Assembly (NCBI GenBank): GCA_029262875.1
Contig: JAJCYO010000170.1
Coordinates: 1 to 36,668 of the forward strand
From: Flavobacteriales bacterium
GTDB taxonomy: Bacteria; Bacteroidota; Bacteroidia; Flavobacteriales_E; Vicingaceae
Direction of reading: 5' to 3'
Length of the DNA: 36,668 bases
Part shown: positions 3,860 through 9,207 of the stretch, one piece after another
How the letters are laid out: each line of letters begins with the position of its first letter
Numbering within the stretch: the stretch's first letter is position 1
The notes under the pieces: model-generated
What the model saw: the letters and a program-made list of their open reading frames with translations, nothing else
Database searches by the model: none
Told to the model about the DNA's origin: nothing
Made by a program: the position numbers and the translations under genes

Positions 3860-5116
3860 CTATATATTCTGGGCTCCTAATAAGATTACCGGGTTTTCCA
3901 TATAATCTTTAAATGATTGTAAAAATTTAGAACCAGCAACACCATCCACTACTCTATGATCGCATGAAAGTGTTACTTTCATTACATTTCCTGGAACTAC
4001 TTTACCATCCTTAACAACAGGAACTTGTTTTGTTCCTCCAACTGCTAAAATACAAGCATCTGGTGGATTAATTATAGCCGTAAATTCTTCAATCCCAAAC
4101 ATTCCTAAATTAGAAATGGTAAACGTACTTCCTTCCCAATCTTCTGGTTGTAATTTTTTGTCTCTTGCTCGAACAGCATAATCCTTTACTTCTGTAGAAA
4201 TTTGACTTAGCGTTTTCCCATCTGCAAATCGTACCACAGGAACCAATAATCCATCTTCAACAGCCACTGCCACACCAATATTTATGTGTTCATTATACCT
4301 TATTCTATCTCCTAACCATGATGAGTTTACAGCTGGATTTTTCTTTAGAGCAGAAGATACTGCTTTAATAATGATATCATTAAATGAAACTTTTAACGGT
4401 GCAATTGCATTAATGGACTTACGAGCAGAAATGGCATTATCCATGTCTATATCCATCGTTAGGTAAAAATGAGGCGCTGAAAATTTACTTTCTCCTAACC
4501 GTTGAGCAATAACTTTTCGCATTTGCGACACTGGTACTTCCGTATATTTTTCTACTCTTACAAAGTTGGCAGCACTTCCACCACCATAATTTTCAATGTC
4601 TCTTTTTACAATTCTACCACCATCACCAGTTCCATTAACCATTGCAAGATTAATGTTCTTCTCTGCAGCTAATTTCTTCGCTAATGGTGAAACCATTATT
4701 CTACCATTGCCATTAGATAGAGTCGTTACAACAGGTGAAGTTTTAGCTGCCTCTACTACTTTTGGTGTATCTTTTTTAACTTCTACAGTTACTGGTGCTA
4801 TAGGCTTTTCTTCAGGTTTCTTTTCCGCTACAACTTCTGCTTTCGGTTCCTCTTTTAGTAAAGCTGAAAAATCTTCCCCTTTCTCTCCAAATACTGCCAA
4901 AACAGTATCAACAGGTGATGTACCTCCCTCTGGAACTCCAATATGCAGGAGTGTACCATCAACAAAAGATTCGAATTCCATTGTTGCTTTATCCGTTTCT
5001 ATATCAGCCAATAAATCACCTTCGCTCACTTTATCTCCAACTTTTTTATGCCATTTAGCTACCACACCTTCCGTCATGGTATCACTCAATTTGGGCATTC
5101 TAACTATTTCAGCCAT
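3860..5116 (-). CDS. pdhC: Dihydrolipoamide acetyltransferase, E2 of pyruvate dehydrogenase
   Basis: A 418-residue E2 core enzyme that moves acetyl groups from lipoyl-lysine to CoA. One N-terminal lipoyl domain is present, with the lipoylation motif ETDKATMEF and Lys43. A Pro/Glu/Lys-rich linker (about 85-135) leads to a peripheral-subunit-binding domain (about 141-176, SPLAKKLAAEKNI to GRIVKRDIENY). The catalytic domain (about 190-418) ends with SCDHRVVDG, giving His387 and Asp391 as the active-site pair. The substrate could in principle be another 2-oxoacid, but pairing with a pdhA-type E1 alpha 25 bp upstream supports pyruvate. No E1 beta gene is in the window. E3 (lpdA) is about 30 kb away on the same strand. 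Confidence 0.93.
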   Translation of the reverse strand: MAEIVRMPKLSDTMTEGVVAKWHKKVGDKVSEGDLLADIETDKATMEFESFVDGTLLHIGVPEGGTSPVDTVLAVFGEKGEDFSALLKEEPKAEVVAEKKPEEKPIAPVTVEVKKDTPKVVEAAKTSPVVTTLSNGNGRIMVSPLAKKLAAEKNINLAMVNGTGDGGRIVKRDIENYGGGSAANFVRVEKYTEVPVSQMRKVIAQRLGESKFSAPHFYLTMDIDMDNAISARKSINAIAPLKVSFNDIIIKAVSSALKKNPAVNSSWLGDRIRYNEHINIGVAVAVEDGLLVPVVRFADGKTLSQISTEVKDYAVRARDKKLQPEDWEGSTFTISNLGMFGIEEFTAIINPPDACILAVGGTKQVPVVKDGKVVPGNVMKVTLSCDHRVVDGVAGSKFLQSFKDYMENPVILLGAQNI

Positions 5117-5141
5117 TATTCTTACTTAATTAGTGTTTTTA

Positions 5142-6137
5142 TTAATCTTTTATAAAAGGATAATCTTCTGCATAAATGTCTTCATACATTGCTTCTGGCT
5201 CTGGAAAAGGAGAATCCTCAGCAAACTTTATAGCATCAAGAATTTGATTTTTTACTTTATCATGGATTTTTTCAATTTGCTTATCCGTAGCATACTTATT
5301 TGCCTTAATTGTTTTCAAGACTTTACTAATTGGATCATCATCTTGATATTCTTCTTCCTCTGCTTTTGTTCTGTACTTACGTGGATCAGACATTGAATGC
5401 CCTTTAAACCTGTAAGTTTCCATTTCCAGCAAGTAAGGTCCTTTTCCTTCTCTACAATGCTTTGCAGCCTTCTCAATCGCATTGTGAACTGCTTCTACAT
5501 CCATTCCATCAACCGCTTCACCCGGCATATCGTAACTCAAACCAATCTTGTATAACTCAGTAACATTTGATGTTCTTTCTACTGAAGTTCCCATAGCATA
5601 CTTATTATTCTCAATAATGTATATCACTGGTAATTTCCATGTCATAGCCATATTAAAGGCTTCGTGCAATGCCCCTTGTCGAATTGCACCATCTCCCATA
5701 GAGCACATCGTTACAGCATCAGTTCCCTTGTATTTTTCTGCAAAAGCTAAACCAGCTCCTAACGGAATTTGGCCACCAACAATGCCATGCCCTCCAAAGA
5801 CTCTTTTACTTACATCAAACATGTGCATGGAACCACCTTTACCTTTAGATAATCCAGTAGTTTTACCATAAAGCTCTGCCATCATATATTTAATATCAGT
5901 TCCTTTTCCTATAGGATGCGCATGACAACGATAGGCAGTTATCATATTGTCCTCTGGCTTAGTTGCAGAAACTGCTCCAGCAACAACAGCTTCCTGTCCA
6001 ATGTATAAATGTAAAAAACCACCAAACTTACGCTGAATATAGAGTTGACTCAACTTCTCCTCGAACTTTCGCATAAGGTACATTGATTCGTACCAGCTTA
6101 AGTATTGTGCCTTAGAAAATTTATTCTTTTTTGCCAT
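5142..6137 (-). CDS. pdhA: Pyruvate dehydrogenase E1 component, alpha subunit
   Basis: A 331-residue thiamine-diphosphate-dependent E1 alpha that decarboxylates pyruvate together with a separate beta subunit. The TPP-binding motif is visible as GDG at 148-150 followed about 30 residues later by ENN (176-178). The region GKGKGGSMHMFD and the loop RFKGHSMSDPRKYR are hallmarks of pyruvate-type E1 alpha, the latter being the loop phosphorylated in the mitochondrial enzyme. Length is normal for Bacteroidota. pdhC follows after 25 bp and the pair is surely co-transcribed; cdd lies 45 bp upstream. pdhB is not adjacent and must be encoded elsewhere, since E1 alpha alone is inactive. Confidence 0.93.
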   Translation of the reverse strand: MAKKNKFSKAQYLSWYESMYLMRKFEEKLSQLYIQRKFGGFLHLYIGQEAVVAGAVSATKPEDNMITAYRCHAHPIGKGTDIKYMMAELYGKTTGLSKGKGGSMHMFDVSKRVFGGHGIVGGQIPLGAGLAFAEKYKGTDAVTMCSMGDGAIRQGALHEAFNMAMTWKLPVIYIIENNKYAMGTSVERTSNVTELYKIGLSYDMPGEAVDGMDVEAVHNAIEKAAKHCREGKGPYLLEMETYRFKGHSMSDPRKYRTKAEEEEYQDDDPISKVLKTIKANKYATDKQIEKIHDKVKNQILDAIKFAEDSPFPEPEAMYEDIYAEDYPFIKD

Positions 6138-6156
6138 AAGTTTTAATGTTAACGCA

Positions 6157-6164
6157 CAAATTTA
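6157..6164 (-). promoter_or_regulatory. Candidate -7 promoter element for pdhA-pdhC
   Basis: On the minus strand this reads TAAATTTG, an exact match to the Bacteroidota -7 consensus TAnnTTTG, ending 20 bp before the pdhA ATG. No TTTG-like -33 box is found at the usual spacing, so the assignment is weak. If used, it would allow pdhA-pdhC expression separately from cdd. Confidence 0.28.
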
Positions 6165-6182
6165 GAATAAATATTTATGATT

Positions 6183-6668
6183 TTAATCTTTTTTAAGGAT
6201 ACTCGCTCCATCAAAAGCAAAAGGTAAAAGATCTTTAATGCTCTTAAAATGCCAGATTTTAGAATCTCCAGATTTTAAAATTAATTCAATGGATTGATTT
6301 TGAGTGGTTTCATACTCAATCAACACTTGTCTACAAGCACCACAAGGTGATACTGGTTGCTCGCTTGAATGCTCCGTTGTGATTACAATTTTATCAATAT
6401 TTTGATTCGGAAATTCCGATTTCGCAGCAAATACAGCTACCCTTTCAGCACAAAGTCCAGAGGGATAAGCTCCATTTTCCTGATTGGTACCACTTACAAT
6501 TTCTCCATTAGCCATTTTACAAACTGCGCTCACTTTAAAATTAGAATATGGAGCGTAAGCATTATGTAAATTTCCTTCAGCTTGGTCTATTAAACCTAAT
6601 AAATCCTCATCTATACCGTTAGTTGAATCATATTCTATAAATTCGATATTCAGTGATTTTTTATTCAT
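6183..6668 (-). CDS. cdd: Cytidine deaminase
   Basis: A 161-residue pyrimidine-salvage enzyme converting cytidine and deoxycytidine to uridine and deoxyuridine. The zinc site is intact: the first motif is CAE, with Cys73 and catalytic Glu75, and the second is PCGAC with Cys109 and Cys112. The upstream block with NFKVSAV and GTNQENGAYPSGLCAER is the substrate-binding signature. The three-cysteine zinc ligation and short length fit the tetrameric class of the enzyme rather than the long E. coli dimeric form. It is divergent from the lipoprotein gene, with 68 bp between starts, and is followed 45 bp later by pdhA. Confidence 0.93.
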   Translation of the reverse strand: MNKKSLNIEFIEYDSTNGIDEDLLGLIDQAEGNLHNAYAPYSNFKVSAVCKMANGEIVSGTNQENGAYPSGLCAERVAVFAAKSEFPNQNIDKIVITTEHSSEQPVSPCGACRQVLIEYETTQNQSIELILKSGDSKIWHFKSIKDLLPFAFDGASILKKD

Positions 6669-6736: not shown

Positions 6737-7120
6737 ATGAAAAAACACTTTTTTATAGTAGGTCTTATCATAATTACGCTGTTCTCCTGTTCTAAAGAAG
6801 AAGGTGAAGGGGGCAGATCATCTATCTCAGGTACGGTTCATATGACTGATGTTACAGGGTTTAATGCAGGAGATGAATACGATGCCCCAGATTATGATGT
6901 TTACATCATTTATGGAGAAGATGACAATATTTATGATGATGATATGAAGACAAACTATGACGGTACTTTTGAGTTTAAAAACCTAAGAGAAGGCTCTTAT
7001 AGATTATATTGCTATACATTAGATTTAAACGAACCATCTGGCAAGTCCCCTGTTTTTAAAGCAATTACCATTAGTGGCAATGAAGAAGGTAGCGTTGGAA
7101 CAATCGAAGTTGAAAAGTAA
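6737..7120 (+). CDS. Small acidic lipoprotein of the polyphosphate-polymerase operon
   Basis: I chose ATG 6737, which gives 127 residues beginning MKKHFFIVGLIIITLFSCSK; LFSC with Cys18 is a lipobox, so the protein should be lipid-anchored in the envelope. An in-frame opening reaches 84 bp further upstream but lacks a signal. The mature protein is very acidic (GDEYDAPDYDVYIIYGEDDN and a following run of Asp), which would suit binding of divalent cations. The second half (YDGTFEFKNLREGSYRLYCY) looks like a small beta-sandwich of the carboxypeptidase-regulatory or transthyretin-like kind. Its TAA is followed with no spacer by the TTG start of the VTC gene in the same frame. The function is unknown; operon context suggests an accessory envelope role. 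Confidence 0.75.
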   Translation: MKKHFFIVGLIIITLFSCSKEEGEGGRSSISGTVHMTDVTGFNAGDEYDAPDYDVYIIYGEDDNIYDDDMKTNYDGTFEFKNLREGSYRLYCYTLDLNEPSGKSPVFKAITISGNEEGSVGTIEVEK

Positions 7121-7879
7121 TTGGATAAATTAAATAATATATTAAATCAGTTAGACCCCATCTCTTTAGAGGAAATGGATAGGGTTAAATTGCAAAATAG
7201 AACGGATACCAAATTTGTTTTCAATGCTGATTTACTACCCGTTATCTTGAATGAAATTAGGGACTTTTATTCTGTTTTAGAGATTAAAGAAAAACGAACG
7301 AATAGCTACGAGACGCTTTATTATGACACAAAGGAATTAAGAAGTTACATTCAACATCATAATGGAAAAGCAAACAGAATCAAAATTCGATTTAGAAAAT
7401 ACATTGAATCTGAATTGAACTTTTTAGAAGTCAAATTCAAAAATAATAAAGGAAGAACAATAAAAGCAAGAAAAAAAACTGGTAGCATTGAGACCATTCT
7501 ATCTCAGGTTTCTAAGGATTTTATTGAGGCTAATTCTTTTTATAAAGGTGATGAAGTTCTTCCTGCTATGTGGAACAGCTTTACCCGTTTAACTTTGGTT
7601 CATAAAACTCAGAATGAACGATTGACAGTTGATTTAAATTTAGTGTTTAAGTCATTCTCAGAGAATACCGAAAAAGGTATTCCTCATATTATTATTGCTG
7701 AAGTAAAACAAGAAAAAGCTTCTGGTAATTCTGATTTTATTAAAGCCATAAAAAAGCACCACATTCAAAAAAGCGGCATGAGTAAATATTGTGTTGGTAC
7801 TGCTTTATTGAATAAAAACTTAAAACAGAATAATTTTAAAGAACGAATTTTAAAAATAAATAAACTCAAACATGCTTAA
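7121..7879 (+). CDS. VTC-domain polyphosphate polymerase family protein
   Basis: A 252-residue cytoplasmic protein of the VTC (triphosphate tunnel) family, whose yeast member Vtc4 makes polyphosphate from ATP. Expected tunnel residues are visible: Arg27 and Lys31 in NRTDTKFVF, YYDT at 67-70, the basic strand RIKIRFRKY with Arg86/Arg90/Arg92, the FLEVKFK strand (Glu103, Lys105), Glu194 in IIAEVKQE, and the C-terminal SGMSKY with Lys222. The start is taken as TTG 7121 because residues ISLEEMDRVKLQNR look like part of the conserved fold; the next ATG (7175) would remove half of it. It shares an 8-bp overlap with the DUF4956 gene. Family call is strong; polyphosphate as product is inferred from the family. 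Confidence 0.82.
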   Translation: MDKLNNILNQLDPISLEEMDRVKLQNRTDTKFVFNADLLPVILNEIRDFYSVLEIKEKRTNSYETLYYDTKELRSYIQHHNGKANRIKIRFRKYIESELNFLEVKFKNNKGRTIKARKKTGSIETILSQVSKDFIEANSFYKGDEVLPAMWNSFTRLTLVHKTQNERLTVDLNLVFKSFSENTEKGIPHIIIAEVKQEKASGNSDFIKAIKKHHIQKSGMSKYCVGTALLNKNLKQNNFKERILKINKLKHA

Positions 7880-8570
7880 TACTATTCTACTAAAGGTAAC
7901 GGAAAATGTCGATCAGATTCCAATATTAGGGTCAAAGTTATGGGACTATAATGATTTTGGAGAAATGATCATTAGATTCGTTATGGATTTCATTGTTGCT
8001 TTTATCATTATCAGATTAATTTATTACCCTATACATAAAAGGAAAGATTACCTGTTTACTTATTTCATGTTTAACATATTAATTTTCTTTATATGTATCC
8101 TGCTGAATAGTGTTAAATTAAAGCTTGGCTTTGCGTTCGGGTTGTTTGCCATCTTTGGAATTTTAAGGTATAGAACGGAACAGCTCCCTATTAAAGAGAT
8201 GACTTATCTTTTTATGATAATAGCCATTGCCATTATTAATTCATTAACTAATAATAAGATAAGTATAGGTGAAGTTGTGTTTACTAATGTTGCCATTATT
8301 ACTGGGGCTTTTTTACTCGAAAAAGTATTTTTGTTAAAACATGAGTCAAGAAAAGATGTACTTTACGAAAAAATTGAAAATGTAAAACCTGAAAACCATG
8401 ATCAATTAATAACTGATTTAAAAGAAAGAACTGGATTGGATATACATCGTGTTCAAATTGGTAAAATTGATTTTTTGAGAGATACGGTTAGAATAATCGT
8501 TTATTATCACGAAGAGAATCCTGACAACAGTTACAATGAGTCCACTTACGTAAGTAATAAGAATGAATAA
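7872..8570 (+). CDS. DUF4956 integral membrane protein
   Basis: A 232-residue inner-membrane protein with about five hydrophobic segments at roughly 31-53, 60-80, 86-98, 110-125 and 134-155, and a soluble C-terminal domain (about 160-232). The loop LRYRTEQLPIKEMTYLF between segments 3 and 4 is the characteristic part of DUF4956. As I recall, this family is often found next to VTC-domain polymerases in bacteria, which suggests a membrane partner that anchors the polymerase or moves its product; no biochemical role is established to my knowledge. The start ATG overlaps the VTC stop by 8 bp and the gene overlaps the next by 8 bp, so translation of all three is probably coupled. Confidence 0.78.
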   Translation: MLNTILLKVTENVDQIPILGSKLWDYNDFGEMIIRFVMDFIVAFIIIRLIYYPIHKRKDYLFTYFMFNILIFFICILLNSVKLKLGFAFGLFAIFGILRYRTEQLPIKEMTYLFMIIAIAIINSLTNNKISIGEVVFTNVAIITGAFLLEKVFLLKHESRKDVLYEKIENVKPENHDQLITDLKERTGLDIHRVQIGKIDFLRDTVRIIVYYHEENPDNSYNESTYVSNKNE

Positions 8571-9207
8571 AAAGTTAATCATAATACTATTATTATTTCC
8601 ATTCCTTACTAAAGCTCAAGTTGTAAGCGATGCTAAAGTATGGGCTGGTGTATCTGTCAATAAAAAAATAAAGAAGTTTGAATTTTCTTTTAGTGAAGAA
8701 TTAAGAATGGACGAAAATGCATCTCATGTTGATAAATTTTTTAGTGAAATAGGTGCACAGTACAAAGTGATAAAAGGTGTTTATGTTGCTCTAAACTATA
8801 GGTATAGTAGAGATAATGATTATGAAACCCGCAATTACGATATGAAGCATCGAATTGATATTGGAGTAACATATAAACATAAATTAAATGATTTTCGTTT
8901 TTCTTTTAGAACTAAAGTACAAACTAAAAGTGCACTACCAGAAGACAACAATCCAACTTTTAGTAGGAACAAACTGGCTATCAAGTATAAACTCAAGAAG
9001 AACATCATTCCTTTTGTTGCTTACGAGTTTTACTATCAGTTTAATGATGAAAAGGTTATTAATAGAACTCGAATATCTTTAGGAAGTTCTTATAAAATCA
9101 ATGATAATAGTGCTGTTAAACTTTTCTATATGTATGAAAATAAGTTTAACACAAGAAACCTAAAACATAATCATGTTTATGGTGTAAGTTATAGTATTGA
9201 TTTATAA
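8563..9207 (+). CDS. DUF2490 outer-membrane beta-barrel protein
   Basis: A 214-residue exported protein with signal peptide MNKKLIIILLLFPFLTKAQ. The rest is a series of alternating beta strands rich in aromatic and charged residues (FEFSFSEELRMD, VYVALNYRYSRDND, HRIDIGVTYKHKL, VKLFYMYENKF), ending in a strand with a terminal hydrophobic residue pattern as in outer-membrane barrels. The EELRMDENASHVDKFFSEIGAQYK block matches DUF2490 as I know it. It is the last gene of the lipoprotein-VTC-DUF4956 operon, overlapping the previous gene by 8 bp. The role is unknown; an outer-membrane exit or anchoring point for the module is a possible inference. Confidence 0.75.
   Translation: MNKKLIIILLLFPFLTKAQVVSDAKVWAGVSVNKKIKKFEFSFSEELRMDENASHVDKFFSEIGAQYKVIKGVYVALNYRYSRDNDYETRNYDMKHRIDIGVTYKHKLNDFRFSFRTKVQTKSALPEDNNPTFSRNKLAIKYKLKKNIIPFVAYEFYYQFNDEKVINRTRISLGSSYKINDNSAVKLFYMYENKFNTRNLKHNHVYGVSYSIDL

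Follow-up and report, generated by a model that had tools for sequence, protein, structure and literature searches.

It was found that four adjacent genes of a Flavobacteriales bacterium, which encode an acidic lipoprotein (hereafter LIP), a VTC-type polymerase, a DUF4956 inner-membrane protein, and a DUF2490 outer-membrane beta-barrel, almost certainly make up a conserved functional module, judging from comparisons of sequences and gene neighborhoods. The most likely reading, and the best single explanation though a tentative one, is that the operon encodes an envelope-spanning polyphosphate (polyP) synthase-exporter. As listed in Table 1, the genes lie on contig JAJCYO010000170.1 (assembly GCA_029262875.1), whose analyzed stretch of 36,668 nucleotides is called the window here. 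The earlier note on this DNA had claimed this gene order within positions 6737-9207, with the first two genes abutting (0-bp gap) and overlaps of 8 bp at the other two junctions, and all four genes were found at exactly those coordinates. As for the TTG start of the VTC gene, the relatives in L010 and L022 are of equal length and likewise begin straight after the LIP stop codon. The VTC and DUF4956 genes are present in one copy each in the genome. No terminator-like site was found at the operon, promoter-like matches were not above chance, and an Rfam search of the window gave no match. Genes resembling cdd, pdhA, and pdhC adjoin the operon (window 3860-6668). Such genes are also the upstream neighbors of a bare VTC-DUF4956 pair in several Flavobacteriales (L110, L116, L127, L147, and L166), where the pair is often followed by type IX system porV- and porU-like genes.

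Table 1. Genes and junctions of the operon in the window, and examples of the YD gene at other loci.
Feature	Position	Strand	Detail
LIP, acidic lipoprotein gene	6737..7120	+	127 aa; ATG at 6737; net charge -13
VTC-type triphosphate-tunnel polymerase gene	7121..7879	+	252 aa; TTG start; PF09359, 2.6e-26
DUF4956 inner-membrane protein gene	7872..8570	+	PF16316, 2e-56
DUF2490 outer-membrane beta-barrel gene	8563..9207	+	PF10677, 2.3e-25
LIP/VTC junction	7118..7123	+	Stop TAA abuts TTG start, 0-bp gap (sequence)
VTC end / DUF4956 start	7872..7879	+	8-bp overlap (sequence)
DUF4956 end / DUF2490 start	8563..8570	+	8-bp overlap (sequence)
YD gene	L105:5635-6216		Example; about 20 further loci have a YD gene
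YD gene	L128:5800-6228		Example
YD gene	L131:5795-6199		Example

Are LIP and DUF2490 true members of this gene set? In the family of the window's organism, 26 of 46 genomes have a VTC gene, and two kinds of loci were recognized. The first kind has the layout of the window; in genera g4 and g5 and in one g16 genome, a gene for a secreted repeat protein, named YD here, lies between LIP and VTC. The second kind has DUF4956-VTC followed by a lipoprotein-like protein of about 490 residues with a CotH match. Two g10 genomes, which belong with the first kind, have the order LIP-DUF2490-VTC-DUF4956. In a sample of 296 genomes of the phylum, VTC was found in 48 and DUF4956 in 74, and the DUF4956 scores fall into two classes, the A-type of the window (153-205 bits) and the B-type (39-74 bits). 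When named genomes were scanned with a DUF4956 alignment, at least 534 relatives were obtained; the analysis used the best 80 of them, and 62 of these have enough flanking sequence. At these 62 loci, VTC was found in 58 cases, DUF2490 in 38, LIP in 28, YD in 19, and CotH in 14, the last with a strict profile built from the kinase core to avoid type IX sorting domains, which probably undercounts. All 66 LIP and DUF2490 neighbors at the full-flank loci lie on the DUF4956 strand. The order LIP-VTC-DUF4956-DUF2490 was seen at 13 loci and the same order with YD inserted at 9, while LIP-(YD)-DUF2490-VTC-DUF4956 and VTC-DUF4956-LIP-DUF2490 also occur. VTC and DUF4956 overlap or abut in 48 of 74 relatives and lie at most 50 bp apart in all of them.

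DUF2490 was found at 15 of 19 A-type VTC loci versus none of the 34 B-type loci examined, many of which have short flanks (p = 6e-10), and at 27 of the 28 full-flank loci with LIP versus 11 of the 34 without LIP (Fisher p = 1.6e-7); since genomes rather than independent events were counted, both p-values overstate independence. As 104 of the 296 phylum genomes carry DUF2490 genes, usually a few each, chance adjacency would be rare. The rearranged gene orders are a stronger argument for linkage than the p-values. Thus, the idea that LIP and DUF2490 belong with the other two genes, for which the earlier note had proposed a neighborhood check, survived it: the two genes are not chance neighbors but keep to the set in several orders across Bacteroidota, with a DUF2490 clade of their own. 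Since VTC-DUF4956 stands alone at 17 of the 62 loci, LIP and DUF2490 are frequent accessories and are not obligatory. The YD gene, located between LIP and VTC (or DUF2490), encodes a secreted protein of 130-200 residues that contains YD-like repeats; the two YD proteins tested gave no Pfam match.

The window DUF2490 protein is a full-length match to PF10677 (89.8 bits against a cut-off of 29.8), and its model is a beta-barrel with a pLDDT of 92.6. KdgM, NanC, and VhGalP are uptake porins, and the lumen of KdgM and NanC is basic. The model resembles KdgM with a Z-score of 16.4 (2.1 A over 154 residues, about 12% identity) and NanC and VhGalP with a Z-score of 14.8. Thus, DUF2490 shares the barrel fold and the basic lumen with KdgM and NanC (PDB 4fqe and 2wjr), which are 12-stranded channels for acidic sugars (PMC4849052). 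In contrast to them, the KdgM family is absent among its Pfam matches up to E 1. When the strand residues were split into inward and outward ones by hydrophobic periodicity, R48, R80, R97, R116, K118, R135, K137, and R170 were assigned to the lumen, and each of these positions is basic in at least 90% of the proteins. It was considered whether this basic lumen is a module-specific adaptation; this was ruled out, since most of the ladder is common to other DUF2490s. In a tree of 42 module proteins and 18 others, the latter being a non-exhaustive sample taken mostly from strong Pfam matches, the module side is set off by a branch with 100/98 support and takes in every gene order as well as a locus without VTC (L177). 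Residue 80 is Arg in 42 of 42 module proteins and in 0 of 18 others, while residue 62 is acidic in 38 of 42 module proteins and basic in 17 of 18 others; both residues are lumenal and lie on adjacent strands. On sequence grounds, the module DUF2490s are a dedicated clade, which R80 and the acidic residue 62 mark within the DUF2490 family (TC 1.B.81; PMC4827864) as sampled here. The window genome has four DUF2490 matches.

The window VTC protein matches PF09359 with 93.1 bits (cut-off 23), and neither an SPX domain nor a membrane domain was found in its 252 residues by the Pfam search. Profile alignments linked the A-type to the B-type VTC (hhalign 99.6%) and the B-type VTC to Vtc4 structures (1.1e-22). 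Thus, the window residues were mapped onto Vtc4 via the B-type VTC by HMMER and hhalign alignments: K31, R90, R92, K105, and R156 correspond to Vtc4 K200, R264, R266, K281, and R361, and R167, E194, K196, S221, and K222 to Vtc4 R373, E426, K428, S457, and K458. Where a Vtc4 residue is named in neither PMC9911596 nor PMC4641920, its number was assigned by counting along the alignment and from general background. Each of the ten residues is conserved in at least 89 of 91 relatives. The position of Vtc4 K455, in contrast, is Gly219 in the window protein and is variable among the 91 relatives; the view that the tunnel residues are intact therefore holds for every mapped Vtc4 residue but this one. 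In hydrolytic tunnel enzymes, Glu occupies positions that are basic in Vtc4 (PMC4641920). Of the three such positions that could be mapped, two are basic in the window VTC (R27 and K196) and the third is Asp29. It is likely that the window VTC synthesizes polyP, as its residues suggest.

The DUF4956 protein matches PF16316 with 190.8 bits (cut-off 30.6). In its AlphaFold2 model (mean pLDDT 86.9), five membrane helices are combined with an alpha/beta domain at the C-terminus. Arg35 and Arg48 in helix 1 are conserved as Arg or Lys across relatives, and R99 and R101 in an R-Y-R-T motif at 99-102 are invariant. By the positive-inside rule, R99 and R101 are predicted to lie on the cytosolic side, as is the small C-terminal domain. 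In the yeast Vtc subunits, basic residues in membrane helix 1 affect polyP synthesis and transfer (PMC9911596). A fold search of solved structures gave no match to the DUF4956 model at E up to 0.001, and a sequence-profile search did not find a solved relative. The best Z-score, 6.2 to helices of RND transporters, is not meaningful for a helical bundle. A likeness to MgtC was expected from the motif; the hhalign probability was 1.3% in a comparison with only three MgtC sequences, and no MgtC Pfam match was found in the window protein. In genomes lacking VTC, A-type DUF4956 genes of L211 (6763-9871) and L212 adjoin genes for a calcineurin-like phosphoesterase and for a secreted 341-residue protein that gave no Pfam match. 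In Carboxylicivirga-like genomes (L132, L137, L145, and L173), DUF4956 is isolated, and VTC is far off or on other contigs.

LIP has the lipobox LFSC and the mature N-terminus CSKEEGEGG. In the alignment, C18, G23, G25, and G26 are invariant, giving G-X-GG after CSKEE. In Capnocytophaga, C-X-K-(D/E)2-X is the optimal surface signal of lipoproteins (PMC5080379). The window CSKEEG matches this signal; 24 of 61 motifs fit it strictly, and many others are C-X-K-E-A. Thus, LIP is probably located on the outer face of the outer membrane. LIP is predicted to have one prealbumin/Ig-like domain, as the Pfam search gave only sub-threshold matches to folds of this type. The relatives of LIP gave matches to these same folds, in some cases above the cut-off, and some relatives have two copies of the domain.

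In the exporter reading, the cytosolic VTC protein would polymerize polyP from ATP inside its tunnel, as its fold and residues suggest. The chain would be fed into DUF4956 at a cytosolic face with conserved basic residues, and, if the yeast Vtc4 polymerase and the membrane channel that it feeds are a guide, DUF4956 may bring it through the inner membrane. The polyanion would then cross the outer membrane by way of DUF2490, whose small barrel has a basic lumen, and LIP, at the outer membrane and probably on its outer face, may be an assembly factor, a plug, or a binding partner. The product, the direction, the complex formation, and the role of LIP are the parts that I infer here. A pathway across both membranes, as had been proposed, is well supported by the domain types, the surface-export motif, and the anion-porin fold. 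Synthesis and export are favored by the kept Vtc4 tunnel residues and the two polymerase-type basic residues, by the KdgM/NanC-like fold and basic lumen of DUF2490, by the single module clade with its private charge pattern, and by the association of DUF2490 with LIP and with A-type rather than B-type loci. Moreover, B-type DUF4956 genes adjoin HlyD-like adaptor and OEP/TolC-like genes in L213 (4033-6938), L214, and L215, possibly as another export machine, and in L216 (5515-8301) DUF4956 is followed by a gene of the phosphate-porin family Porin_O_P and a CotH gene; these are again cases of an inner-membrane DUF4956 beside outer-membrane conduits. On the other hand, the basic residues of the lumen are for the most part shared by other DUF2490 paralogues, and the channel role of DUF4956, which has no solved relative, is putative.

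Bacterial polyP is usually attributed to cytosolic PPK1 and PPK2. No match to PPK1 or PPK2 was found in the window genome, whose estimated completeness is 100%; apart from VTC, no polyP polymerase of a known type was found there, which also favors the exporter. It was considered whether VTC replaces a lost PPK1. For the window genome and a small number of further ones this is possible; however, PPK1 was found in 267 of the 296 sampled genomes, including nearly all VTC carriers, and this counts against a simple replacement. As PPK1 accompanies VTC in most carriers, the product of VTC is probably a pool of its own that is coupled to the membrane.

Could the same genes serve another purpose? The nearest folds of DUF2490 are uptake porins, a point against the exporter, and substrate binding is common among surface lipoproteins of Bacteroidota. 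It is thus conceivable that polyP, or an anionic oligomer of another kind, is taken up through DUF2490, with LIP binding it at the surface, DUF4956 moving it inward, and VTC acting as a hydrolase or in reverse. This is improbable, since no recurrent TonB-dependent partner or ABC importer was found in the loci read, the VTC positions noted above are of the polymerase type, and the HlyD/OEP neighbors of other DUF4956 genes suggest export. The 17 loci with VTC-DUF4956 only, which weaken the exporter, would fit a self-contained periplasmic phosphate store or signal, with LIP and DUF2490 as a separate envelope pair that is regulated in common with it but has no part in its product; I consider this unlikely, since LIP and DUF2490 stay with the pair through several rearrangements and the DUF2490 clade is dedicated. 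The substrates of tunnel enzymes are diverse (PMC4641920), and together with the loss of Vtc4 K455 this may mean that the product of VTC is some other polyanion, or that VTC acts on the head group of a lipid or glycan, a very improbable case given that every other mapped Vtc4 tunnel residue is kept.

A further alternative, which has somewhat more in its favor but is also unlikely, is that VTC and DUF4956 deliver a phosphoanhydride, polyP or a different one, to the outside of the cytoplasm, where it would be the phosphate donor for exported CotH-family kinases. Surface proteins would be the targets of these kinases, with LIP and the repeat protein as substrates or scaffolds, and DUF2490 would only hand the donor on. 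The 14 CotH genes at the full-flank A-type loci are on the same strand, and CotH also lies beside several B-type pairs. In L177 (6974-9727), DUF4956-DUF2490 is followed by a clear CotH match (7e-72), and no VTC match was found anywhere in the genome; such retention of DUF4956-DUF2490-CotH is also a point against the exporter. In streptococci and clostridia, CotH, a polyP polymerase, and DUF4956 (and DUF4832) cluster beside pel genes (PMC7112168). In several loci, the gene directly upstream of LIP encodes a protein whose C-terminus resembles a type IX sorting domain, so that kinases of this kind could work at sites with little ATP. On the other hand, most A-type loci have no CotH nearby. No CotH gene was found next to the window operon; seven CotH matches lie elsewhere in the window genome. 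To my knowledge, no polyP-using kinase is known here.

How does the module compare with known systems? Like the yeast VTC complex (Vtc1/Vtc3/Vtc4; PMC9911596), it has a tunnel-fold polymerase with the mapped catalytic residues, coupled genetically to a membrane protein of several helices in which basic residues are conserved. In contrast to yeast, the polymerase has no SPX match or fused membrane domain, the membrane partner is DUF4956 rather than a Vtc1-type protein, and outer-membrane parts are added. The pel-side cluster (PMC7112168) also has a VTC-type polymerase adjoining DUF4956, with CotH as in many A-type relatives. However, it belongs to Gram-positive bacteria with no outer membrane and lacks LIP and DUF2490, while the window operon lacks CotH, DUF4832, and pel genes. 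In Bacteroides thetaiotaomicron, the neighboring genes BT3498-BT3499 encode DUF4956 and DUF2490 and appear in an expression table without a function (PMC10434189). Neither the four-gene unit nor bacterial VTC-type synthesis coupled to two-membrane export was described in the literature searched, mostly without subscription papers. Thus, the VTC-DUF4956-CotH association is already known, and the variant with LIP and DUF2490 is new here.

The module consists of four named, co-inherited genes, in a genome in which no known type of polyP polymerase was found besides VTC, and suggests a role for DUF4956 and DUF2490, two widespread families without an assigned function. It also makes the phosphate source of exported CotH kinases testable. 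A dedicated trans-envelope machine may secrete polyP in Bacteroidota and provide the cell surface with this high-energy phosphate polymer, in many lineages for exported CotH-family kinases that work without ATP, a speculation that I regard as rather improbable. If true, it would be an extracytoplasmic phosphorylation pathway powered by polyphosphate.
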